DNA of 23,295 nt. Origin: a virus. The number at the start of each line of letters is the position of its first letter. Positions within the stretch are counted from its first letter, which is position 1. A program made the translations under genes and the position numbers. Below the pieces are notes generated by a model. The model was not told the DNA's origin, made no database searches, and saw only the letters and a program-made list of their open reading frames with translations. The DNA lies in IMG/VR virus record IMGVR_UViG_3300007363_000107, positions 1 through 23,295 of that record, one strand, 5' to 3'. Positions 5,477 to 10,396 of the stretch are shown here, piece by piece.

Positions 5477-5509
5477 GCCCCTGTGCTTAACGGCATGGGG
5501 GCTTTTTTT
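5477..5509 (+). terminator. Rho-independent terminator after the capsid gene
   Basis: The stem is GCCCCTGTG (5477-5485) pairing with CATGGGGGC (5494-5502), nine pairs including two G-U, with an 8-base loop and seven T. It lies eight bases after the capsid stop codon. Because head genes continue downstream with no clear new promoter, it probably reduces rather than stops read-through, giving more capsid transcript than connector transcript. Confidence 0.85.
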
Positions 5510-5534: not shown

Positions 5535-5987
5535 ATGGAATTAGTTGAAATTATTGCCTTGTCTCACTTTGATGATTCACGCATTGGTAGCGTGAGTAAG
5601 AAGATGAGATTAAAAGTTCCGTCAGTTGTTGCTGACGATCTGGAATCAATTGGCTTGGTTCAAATCATAAACCCTCGAGTGGCGACCGCACCAAGAAGCG
5701 CATCGATCGTACCGCCGGTCGTTGGGCAGGGCGTGTCGCCTGTATTGTTGCAAGCGGACCAAGTCTCACCGAGGAAGATTGCAAGATCGTTGGAGACCAA
5801 GGATGGGCGACCATTGCTGTCAATGACAGCTATCGCCGCGCGCCATTCGCAGACTGTCTCTATGCCTGTGATGAACAATGGTGGCGAGTCCACATTGACA
5901 GAGTTAGAGCAGACTACAAAGGCGAATGTTGGACGCAAGATGAGAGGGCGTCCGAAAGGTTCAAGATCAATCGCATCGGCTCTGTAA
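5535..5987 (+). CDS. Small head-region protein; only the N-terminal ~47 residues look conserved
   Basis: The first 47 residues (MELVEIIALSHFDDSRIGSV onwards, to LVQIINP) resemble the short proteins found just after the capsid gene in many HK97-like phages, with the pattern of a hydrophobic start, D-S-R-x-G-x-V and a VPxxVADDLExxGLV helix. Past residue 47 the frame stays open for another 100 codons, but composition becomes irregular and the overlapping -1 frame carries a much better conserved protein (see 5675-6316). The C-terminus RGRPKGSRS resembles basic tails of such proteins, so the full 150 aa cannot be excluded. No good Shine-Dalgarno precedes the ATG. It may be translated alone, as a -1 frameshift fusion, or be interrupted by an indel. 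Confidence 0.55.
   Translation: MELVEIIALSHFDDSRIGSVSKKMRLKVPSVVADDLESIGLVQIINPRVATAPRSASIVPPVVGQGVSPVLLQADQVSPRKIARSLETKDGRPLLSMTAIAARHSQTVSMPVMNNGGESTLTELEQTTKANVGRKMRGRPKGSRSIASAL
5669..5675 (+). promoter_or_regulatory. Candidate -1 slippery heptamer A AAC CCT
   Basis: In the frame of the gene that starts at 5535 the codons ATA AAC CCT give a heptamer of X XXY YYZ form. A -1 slip here would read AAA CCC and continue into the 213-codon frame that ends at 6316. The CCC core is not a classic efficient slippery sequence, and AAC-to-AAA re-pairing is imperfect, so this is only a candidate. No clear downstream stem was found by eye. Confidence 0.3.
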
Positions 5988-6316
5988 ACAAAGCGGGATT
6001 AGGCGTTGATGGCTTAATACATCAAGGCGGTAACAGTGGTTATCAGGCGATCAATCTGGCATACCTTTGGGGTGCAAAGACAATTGTTCTGCTAGGATTA
6101 GATTGTTCTGCATCTCCTAAAGGTGAGGCTCATTGGTTTGGTCAGCATGGCGAAGGACTAACAAATCAACAGCCATTCAAGATGTGGCAAGCTAAGTTTC
6201 CGCAACTTGCAATTGATCTGCAAGCCGAGGGAGTAAGAGTTATAAATGCAAGCAGGGAAACGGCTCTGACTTGCTTTGAGCGTATGTCGCTCGAGGAAGC
6301 AATTAAAGTATGTTGA
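5675..6316 (+). CDS. Rossmann-like (DUF115/MptE-like) protein in the -1 frame, no normal start codon
   Basis: This frame is open from 5636 to the TGA at 6314-6316. It encodes a coherent domain: RWAGRVACIVASGPSLTEED (a nucleotide-binding-like G-P-S-L turn), ATIAVNDSYRRAPFADCLYA, then GGNSGYQAINLAYLWGAKTI, the strand VLLGLDC, HWFG and INASRETALTCF. I recognise it as a family common beside capsid genes of betaproteobacterial phages and distantly like DUF115/sialyltransferase-type folds; substrate unknown. No ATG, GTG or TTG lies before the conserved part. ATC at 5702 is where homologues would be expected to start. Translation therefore needs a -1 frameshift from the 5535 gene, a rare start, or correction of an indel. 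It overlaps the next gene by seven bases. Confidence 0.7.
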   Translation, partial: SSGDRTKKRIDRTAGRWAGRVACIVASGPSLTEEDCKIVGDQGWATIAVNDSYRRAPFADCLYACDEQWWRVHIDRVRADYKGECWTQDERASERFKINRIGSVNKAGLGVDGLIHQGGNSGYQAINLAYLWGAKTIVLLGLDCSASPKGEAHWFGQHGEGLTNQQPFKMWQAKFPQLAIDLQAEGVRVINASRETALTCFERMSLEEAIKVC

Positions 6317-7029
6317 CCTTACTGACTGCGACTGGTGCAAGACCAAAGGCGTGGGCGATCTGCGAAATGTGGATGGCTCGTCAGACTTATCGCGGTAAGG
6401 TGCGATGGGTAATTGTTGATGATGGCGAAGTTGCACAGCAAATCACATTCAGCAAAGACAATTGGACATTAGAAGTTATCCGTCCTACTCCTTACTGGCA
6501 AGCGGGTATGAATACGCAAGCGCGTAATCTTCGCGCCGGTATGGAAGTAATCAGTGGTGACGAGCGCGTTGTCTTTATCGAGGATGACGATTGGTATGCG
6601 GCAGACTGGTTAGAGACAATTGATAAGAAGTTTGAGAAAGCTGAGTTAATTGGCGAAGCTAATTCGCGCTATTACAACTTGCCTCAGAAGTCTTATAAAA
6701 AAATGGATAACACTTTGCATAGCAGTCTTTGCTCGACAGCTATTCGCGGTCAAGCATTGGAAACATTTAAGTCTGTATGCAGAGACACAATTCAATTCAT
6801 TGATCATATACTTTGGCAAGCACACAGCAACAATCATTTGTTCAGTGGCGAACGAGTATTGGGTATCAAGGGAATTGAAGGTCGACACGGCATTGGTATT
6901 GGACACGCAAAAAATTTCCGTGGAACTAAGGATGTTGGCGGTAAAATTTTGAAATCGTGGATTGGTGATGACGCTTTGGTTTATAAGCCAGAGGGAAAAA
7001 TAAATGACGCAATTAGCTCGGAAGATTAA
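6310..7029 (+). CDS. Glycosyltransferase, family 2-like (GT-A fold)
   Basis: This probably transfers a sugar from a nucleotide-sugar donor; the acceptor is unknown. The 239-aa protein begins with a strand-rich LTLLTATGARP segment, then VRWVIVDDGE with D37-D38, and VVFIEDDDWYAADWL with E91-D94, the DXD-type metal and nucleotide site of GT-A enzymes. A loop HGIGIGHA follows near residue 193. A GAGGAAG Shine-Dalgarno precedes the ATG. It overlaps the Rossmann-like gene by seven bases and the connector gene by 26 bases, so all three are probably co-translated. Two sugar-related genes inside a head module suggest modification of a virion protein or of the host surface; that is inference. Confidence 0.8.
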   Translation: MLTLLTATGARPKAWAICEMWMARQTYRGKVRWVIVDDGEVAQQITFSKDNWTLEVIRPTPYWQAGMNTQARNLRAGMEVISGDERVVFIEDDDWYAADWLETIDKKFEKAELIGEANSRYYNLPQKSYKKMDNTLHSSLCSTAIRGQALETFKSVCRDTIQFIDHILWQAHSNNHLFSGERVLGIKGIEGRHGIGIGHAKNFRGTKDVGGKILKSWIGDDALVYKPEGKINDAISSED

Positions 7030-9428: not shown

Positions 9429-9472
9429 GAATTGCCGTAAATGGCAACACGCGCACCTACTCGGGTCAGTTC

Positions 9473-9537
9473 GCATCCTTCGCGGGGTGCGGCTGACTTG
9501 AGCAAGGGCAATAACTCTCCCCGCGAAAGGATTACTA
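9473..9537 (+). promoter_or_regulatory. Two mutually exclusive hairpins in the leader of the tail chaperone gene
   Basis: Hairpin A: GCATCC (9473-9478) pairs with GGGTGC (9485-9490), loop TTCGCG. Hairpin B: TTCGCGGGG (9479-9487) pairs perfectly with CCCCGCGAA (9529-9537) over nine bases, with a 41-base loop. The two share bases and cannot form together. Hairpin B ends in the first two A of the AAAGGA Shine-Dalgarno of the gene at 9540, so it could reduce ribosome access. The structure is seen in sequence; any regulatory role is inference. Confidence 0.4.
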
Positions 9538-9539
9538 AA

Positions 9540-9944
9540 ATGTTTGATATTTCACAACTAGCCGTTAAAGAAACCGCAATCATCGAATTGGAAACAGTTG
9601 ATGGTGATGCACTGCTCGATGCCAATGGAAATCAGCTCAGTATCACAGTCTATGGTCCAGGCTCTAAGGCATTCCAGAAAGCGCAAAGCATCCGCAATCG
9701 CGCAATTCTTGAGTATGTCAAGAAGGGTGGCAAGAAGATGAAAGAAGGCGAACAGCGCGAGCTTGATGCTGAGTTCTTGTCGGCTTGCACAGTCAGCTTC
9801 AATGGCTTTGGTTACAAAGACTACACAGGCGTTGAAATGTTTAAAGCCGCTTATTTGGATTCTGCAATCGGCTTCATTACTGAGCAAGTAAACAAAGCTG
9901 TCGGTGACTGGGCAAATTTTACTCCGGCATCATCGAAGACCTGA
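9540..9944 (+). CDS. Tail assembly chaperone, short form (gpG-like)
   Basis: Short product of the lambda G/GT type gene that assists tape measure folding and tail tube assembly. The 134-aa protein begins MFDISQLAVKETAIIELET, contains the frequent segment AILEYVKKGGKKMKEGEQRE and a conserved acidic-aromatic stretch with W in AVGDWANF just before the shift site. The start at 9540 has AAAGGA eight bases upstream; an in-frame ATG at 9441 would add 33 irregular residues without a ribosome site and would place the leader hairpins inside the gene. It precedes the tape measure, as in nearly all siphoviruses. Confidence 0.9.
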   Translation: MFDISQLAVKETAIIELETVDGDALLDANGNQLSITVYGPGSKAFQKAQSIRNRAILEYVKKGGKKMKEGEQRELDAEFLSACTVSFNGFGYKDYTGVEMFKAAYLDSAIGFITEQVNKAVGDWANFTPASSKT

Positions 9945-10396
9945 CTCTGTATGCGAGGCAACTGGCTTGGTTCAGATCAATCCCAGTTGCCAAGCAAGAG
10001 AAATCGGTTGCATCAGGCGAGAAGCAAGCTGAGTTAACGCGCGCTGAGAAGATACAAAAAAACGGCGGCAAGCCATTGATGCCTGATGTTGGTGATGCAG
10101 AATATGTGATAACCTACTGGCAAGATTTAGGCATGGTAGAGATGGGCGCGATGGGTCCAGTACCATTGTCAGCGAAAGAAATTATTTCATGGCAACACTG
10201 CACAGGCGTTGACCTTGAAGCATGGGAATACAGGGCGATCAAGCAGATGTCTCAAGCGTATTTGATGCAAGCCAAAGAGAGCGAGAAGCCAGAGTGCGAG
10301 CCTCCATTTGGTGACCCAGTAAATGAGTTTGACAGAAGCATTGTGAGCAAGAAAGTTGGCAACGCATTTAAAGCGTTCATACAGGCAAGAAGGTAA
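9540..10396 (+). CDS. Tail assembly chaperone, frameshifted long form (gpGT-like)
   Basis: The -1 frame is open from 9908 to the TAA at 10394-10396. It has no start near its beginning, so it is made by -1 frameshift: 127 codons in the first frame through TTT at 9918-9920, then TAC TCC GGC onward, 158 more residues, giving 285 aa. The T part contains LYARQLAWFRSIPV, a Lys/Glu-rich linker, EYVITYWQDLG and WEYRAIKQMSQAYLM. In lambda the long form links tail tube subunits to the tape measure while the short form coats it, and a set ratio is needed. An ATG at 10076 exists but would lose the conserved first 52 codons. Confidence 0.88.
9914..9920 (+). promoter_or_regulatory. Programmed -1 slippery heptamer A AAT TTT
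   Basis: Codons GCA AAT TTT in the G frame form a classic X XXY YYZ heptamer, AAATTTT. After slipping, the tRNAs re-pair on AAA TTT and reading continues in the T frame. It lies eight codons before the G stop, the usual place in siphovirus chaperone genes. I see no strong stem immediately 3' by eye. Confidence 0.9.

Follow-up and report, generated by a model that had tools for sequence, protein, structure and literature searches.

The gene pair directly downstream of the major capsid gene in this phage is very probably expressed by a programmed -1 ribosomal frameshift, which would produce a fusion protein with a glycosyltransferase-fold domain. This reading is based on sequence comparison: a frame break that is common to the relatives, a conserved slippery site, a downstream stem in the group of the analysed phage, a switch of the coding frame at the site, and natural in-frame fusions. 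According to the proposed mechanism, ribosomes that translate the first gene would mostly finish a short 0-frame protein, and some would slip back by one base at the heptamer A AAC CCT. There, the tRNA-Asn would re-pair from AAC to AAA and the tRNA-Pro from CCT to CCC, and a stem that starts 5 nt downstream may help the slip. The slipped ribosomes would read to position 6316 and yield a 260-aa fusion in which the N-terminal domain (N-domain) is joined to a domain of GT42/Maf/MptE-like glycosyltransferase fold. The locus would thus give two products with a common N-domain, in a ratio set by the efficiency of the slip.

The analysed stretch of DNA, here called the window, is a virus record of 23,295 bases and part of a tailed-phage genome. 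In order, it carries the genes of the small and large terminase subunits, the portal, the prohead protease and the major capsid protein; these are followed by the gene pair, a weak GT2-like gene, the head-tail adaptor and the head closure gene. The features of the locus are listed in Table 1. The ATG of the GT2-like gene overlaps the stop codon of the fusion (ATGTTGA), and this gene is a possible functional partner of the fusion. Counting the domain of the fusion, two glycosyltransferase-like genes are located between the capsid and the connector genes. The interval that separates the capsid gene from the 0-frame gene contains a terminator-like hairpin followed by TTTTTTT, at 5477-5502. It yielded no promoter-like site, and by eye no clear Shine-Dalgarno sequence precedes position 5535.

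Table 1. Features of the frameshift locus, with positions in the window
Feature	Position	Strand	Description
0-frame gene	5535..5987	+	150 aa; ORF conserved in 80 clusters; folded N-domain at about residues 1-46, followed by a probably disordered tail
Slippery heptamer A AAC CCT	5669..5675	+	0-frame codons AAC CCT; in register
Spacer, heptamer to stem	5676..5680	+	5 nt; same spacing in 27 aligned clusters
Stimulatory stem (predicted)	5681..5740	+	arms 5681-5689 and 5731-5740, 5734 bulged; from fold and covariation
Shifted-frame part of fusion	5675..6316	+	213 codons from the slip onward; the frame is open from 5636; domain with a GT42/Maf/MptE-like glycosyltransferase fold
Next gene, GT2-like glycosyltransferase	6310..7029	+	Pfam Glycos_transf_2 just under the curated cut-off (21.5 vs 23.3 bits)

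In the window, the shifted frame has a stop codon just upstream of 5636 and is open up to the TGA at 6314-6316, with no ATG, GTG or TTG ahead of a conserved core (ASGPSL). The initial annotation had noticed this open frame without a start codon, had noted that a -1 slip out of the frame of the preceding gene leads into it, and had named A AAC CCT as the only in-register heptamer of the useful stretch. We confirmed all three observations. Likewise, a slip at this heptamer joins 47 and 213 residues to the predicted 260 aa, and the 0 frame remains open beyond the slip site, for about 103 further codons.

When searching phage records with the 0-frame protein, we found no match; the relatives were therefore sought by way of the proteins of the shifted frame and the capsid gene. 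We found 363 loci in viral contigs, one genome collection and phage records, and none in a search of plasmids. The loci contain 165 distinct sites that form 88 clusters at 85% DNA identity, where counts of clusters are not independent owing to shared ancestry. A 0-frame ORF overlaps the shifted frame in 80 of the 88 clusters, and the other eight comprise stand-alone genes or continuous fusions. Among the overlapping clusters, 70 resemble the window in having no ATG, GTG or TTG ahead of the core; in ten, the shifted frame contains a start codon of some kind. In nine overlapping clusters, ATT, ATC, ATA and CTG are also absent.

These relatives bear on the simplest alternative, which had also been raised in the initial annotation, namely that the gene was broken or mis-assembled by one base or has lost its start codon, and that its relatives are normal. 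One heptamer in one sequence could indeed occur by chance, and stand-alone relatives with their own ATG or GTG exist in PAJU2, P1 and phiNP; however, the overlapping upstream gene is absent from these. Furthermore, homologues with the same frame break, whose presence had been suggested as a test, were found in 80 clusters of independent assemblies and in the isolated phage D3, which argues for recoding. As the slippery site and the stem are also conserved and the domain appears to be under selection in this layout (see below), we consider an indel, a sequencing error or a lost start codon to be ruled out for practical purposes.

The overlapping layout is also seen in cultured phages, where the second gene is annotated incompletely. 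In D3, orf6.5 and orf7 are the same gene pair, with C CCA AAG at 5837-5843 of NC_002484, and orf7 is annotated from an internal start past the conserved motif. The second gene as annotated in Psp6 and in Tetraselmis virus S20 starts downstream of where the conserved match begins; no convincing heptamer was found near the core of Psp6. We also observed a match to the D3 domain (60% identity) at 2001-2414 of Pseudomonas phage PACT201 (L365), in a stretch without an annotated gene. At two further loci (L330 and L280), the ORF just upstream of a stand-alone gene carries another family member at its end, with NSG... and HWHGDHP motifs, suggesting tandem copies of this family; in L330, this ORF ends 32 nt before the core.

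The comparison with relatives indicates that selection acts on the slippery site itself. The initial annotation had considered that the heptamer might be a chance occurrence, which is possible for the lone sequence of the window but does not hold for the relatives. Within the useful stretch, an X XXY YYZ heptamer occurs in register in 65 of the 80 overlapping clusters, whereas shuffling the codons of the 0 frame gave 17.3 +/- 3.5 clusters (at most 29 in 2000 runs), and the other two registers gave 14 and 9. The heptamers belong to the classes A AAC CCN, C CCA AAR/AAC, C CCU UUN, G GGA AAR, A AAA AAN and others. All 15 clusters without a heptamer have an in-register C_CCU, C_CCC or U_UUU tetramer near the junction. 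Tetramers of the types C_CCY and U_UUU have been measured as shifty in Escherichia coli, where the order is A_AAG >> U_UUC > U_UUU > C_CCU = C_CCC > A_AAA, and A AAC CCN is outside the strongest E. coli slippery motifs (PMC4066793).

The nucleotides of the site are conserved beyond the encoded Asn-Pro and far above background. The Asn codon is AAC in 33/33 cases (background 42%), the base ahead of it is A in 29/33 (background 20%) and the Pro codon is CCY in 30/33 (background 48%). The codon before the Asn varies in its meaning (V, L, A, P, I, T, E or K). Site classes, taken together with layouts, require at least 34 changes on the maximum-likelihood tree, with a site being kept. The position of the site differs as well, the heptamer of the D3-like group being 45 nt nearer to the core than that of the window's group.

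The periodicity of substitutions changes its frame at the site in two groups, whose sites are at -81 and -36. Among the close relatives of the window, 55-76% of the changes upstream of the heptamer are on third positions of the 0 frame and 0-10% on those of the shifted frame. From the heptamer onward, the latter take 39%, then 74% and then up to 82%. An exception to this switch is a nearly invariant stretch at -21 to 0, which holds the 3' arm of the stem. In the D3-like group, the switch moves along with the heptamer, with 15% before it and 49% and then 62% after it. These patterns indicate that the shifted-frame domain is under selection in the overlapping layout.

We analysed the downstream stem in the 27 clusters that have a slippery heptamer at the position of the window's. 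Standard pairs occur in 85.6% of the stem cells. Doubly changed stem cells number 48, compared to 19.3 +/- 3.7 in column shuffles (0/500 shuffles reached this number) and at most 14 in slid controls. When comparing the folding energy to synonymous permutations of the shifted gene, we obtained a z of -4.4 for the window and a mean of -1.55 for the A AAC CCN class, whereas the G GGA AAA class has a z of about 0. With dinucleotide shuffles of single sequences, z was only -0.25 to -2.4, varying with the stretch that is shuffled. In the D3-like group, some members have a hairpin of 10-12 bp after the site, and D3 itself gave no stem signal (z near zero). A common covarying stem was not established for this group, as hairpins occur in several members but not generally. 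Covariation and folding together make the predicted stem well supported for the group of the window only.

Two further explanations were weighed. First, the domain might be translated alone from a non-AUG start such as ATT, ATC, ATA or CTG, with the heptamer being incidental. Some near-cognate codon is present in the stretch in 71 of the 80 clusters; however, the only positions in common are -3 and -6, which are within the first strand of the fold, and nine clusters have no near-cognate codon at all. Since such initiation also leaves the heptamer, the stem, the coding switch and the natural fusions unexplained, we consider it unlikely. Second, and even less probable, RNA polymerase rather than the ribosome might slip and change the frame. 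Although homopolymer runs lie close to the junction in a few members (e.g. L322 and L304), the common sites (AAACCC, CCCAAA, CCCUUU and GGGAAA) hold only three-base runs, and the sites are in the ribosomal register with a 3' stem at the usual spacing. Programmed ribosomal frameshifting thus remains the preferred reading.

Homologues with a continuous fused frame, the second test that had been suggested, were also found. At two loci downstream of the capsid gene, L316 and L325, a single uninterrupted frame beginning with ATG codes for both the N-domain and the glycosyltransferase-fold domain. The N-terminus of L316 and the 0-frame domain of the window match along 46 residues, as far as the slip site (E 4e-7); the likeness of the L325 N-terminus was recognized by eye. 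The two loci are on separate branches of the tree, and L316 is nested among frameshifting members, though on a long branch of its own. When using the L316 fusion as a query, no further full-length fusions were found. These in-frame fusions argue that the shift serves to make the fused protein. Together with the conserved site, the stem and the frame break, they support the suggestion of the initial annotation that a -1 shift at A AAC CCT makes this a two-product locus.

Next, we describe the shifted-frame domain. It matches phrog_4603 (E 4e-46), and its AlphaFold2 model has a pLDDT of 95.2. The best structural match is the glycosyltransferase Maf (5mu5; Z 15.9 over 190 residues at 3.4 A), followed by the sialyltransferases CstI (Z 12.6) and CstII (Z about 12) and an archaeal MptE-type pterin kinase (Z 12.3). 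The earlier description as Rossmann-like can thus be narrowed to a glycosyltransferase-like fold of the Maf/CstI-CstII/MptE type. Maf, CstI/CstII (GT42) and MptE share the fold with the domain at Z 12-16, but the identity is 10-14%. Six polar residues (D68, N122, D145, H155, H160 and N193) are invariant in 42 diverse sequences; H155, H160 and the others are compatible with sugar transfer, and the conserved HxxGxH motif may resemble the region of the CstII catalytic histidine.

Alternatively, the domain could be catalytically dead and serve as a structural add-on to the head, as in Ig-like capsid extensions. Profile searches of solved structures gave no match for either domain of the fusion, including any solved transferase, and the Pfam family MptE-like (PF01973) scores 26.6 bits, under its gathering score of 34.6, so that the domain is not filed as a member. 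In addition, the homologues in PAJU2 and Klebsiella phage Eowyn are annotated as 'structural protein'. The invariance of the polar residues across diverse sequences and the weak glycosyltransferase-like gene directly after the fusion speak against such an add-on, which we regard as less likely than an enzyme.

The 0-frame protein has a confident AlphaFold2 fold only for about residues 1-46 (pLDDT >90 for 42 residues); past the slip site, the low-confidence model suggests that it is probably disordered. The first Foldseek match of the N-domain is the C-terminal domain of lambda gpFI (2lsm; E 0.03), with Z 5.4 and an rmsd of 1.3 A over 45 residues at 24% identity. This is a small common fold: the likeness is tied with unrelated small folds (GINS and L9 domains), and hhalign gives a probability of 7%. 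The C-terminal domain of gpFI binds the capsid protein, and FI follows its capsid gene in lambda as the 0-frame gene does here. Because of the weak likeness to gpFI, the shared map position and the capsid binding of the gpFI domain, we propose that the small 0-frame product acts in head assembly and that the shifted product would bring a glycosyltransferase to the head. The more specific version, in which the N-domain is a gpFI-like prohead-binding module by which the minor product carries the glycosyltransferase to the assembling capsid, is put forward tentatively, as somewhat short of probable.

The initial annotation had pointed to a plausible basic tail of the 0-frame protein (RGRPKGSRS). 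A basic motif does exceed the expectation, as it occurs in 40 of 79 0-frame tails compared to 20.2 expected from synonymous permutation; however, the overlapping protein accounts for at least part of this tail. The 0 frame is open for 44 vs 22 codons in the short-overlap group and for 100 vs 30 in the long-overlap group, with a median per-cluster P of about 0.2. Motif excess and open length give moderate support, and we did not accept the tail as proof of a second selected product. Many 0-frame tails have AT-hook-like RGRP or RGR/KKGRK ends (e.g. L331, L251 and L189), and a role in DNA binding is possible.

Phage -1 frameshifts are already known from tail chaperones and capsid extensions (PMC5009743). 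The tail assembly chaperone G/GT of lambda and HK97 similarly combines a -1 frameshift in the late structural module with a minor, C-terminally extended protein, but here other genes are involved, after the capsid gene, and the extension has a glycosyltransferase fold. The phage of the window appears to have a shift of the G/GT type as well: between the genes of the major tail protein and the tape measure, a second -1 frame opens at 9908 (ORFs 9441-9944 and 9908-10396) with A AAT TTT in register at 9914-9920, which is probably the classical tail-assembly-chaperone frameshift. The capsid-protein frameshifts of T3/T7, A2 and Listeria phages (PMC5009743) also affect a head-module gene and yield two products with a common N-terminus; in those cases the extension, often of Ig-like domains, is added to the major head protein, whereas here a small neighbour gene gains an enzyme-like domain. 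Phage D3 shares the layout, although it is annotated as two genes, and differs from the window in its closer slip site and in having no clear stem. The likeness to lambda gpFI concerns the gene right after the major capsid gene and an N-domain that weakly resembles the gpFI C-terminal domain end to end; unlike here, gpFI bears this domain at its C-terminus. The kind of event is thus known, a phage -1 frameshift, and the outcome, an enzyme-like domain on a head-module protein, is unusual. In a limited search of the open-access literature without supplements, we found no earlier description of this gene pair as frameshifted.

The logic also resembles that of retroviral Gag-Pol, where -1 slippage sets the ratio of a structural protein to a minor enzyme-bearing form. 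The proteins are unrelated, and packaging of an enzyme is hypothetical here. In such a strategy, the frameshift would set the ratio of a prohead-binding protein to a minor glycosyltransferase form, so that few enzyme copies per assembling capsid would glycosylate the virion or other head components. We consider this doubtful.

If our reading is true, a widespread -1 frameshift joins those known from phage head modules, as the frameshifted pair is found in D3-like Pseudomonas prophages, freshwater phages and others. Gene annotations overlook this frameshift, as in D3, Psp6 and Tetraselmis virus S20, where the second gene is annotated from too far downstream. The product is retained as the site shifts among A AAC CCN, C CCA AAR, C CCU UUN, G GGA AAR and tetramers alone. 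The varied sites and the two lineages in which the genes are joined in one frame thus form a natural series for studying the evolution of slippery sites. Lastly, the gene pair provides a testable lead to glycosylation of the phage head, where the fusion may modify the virion.
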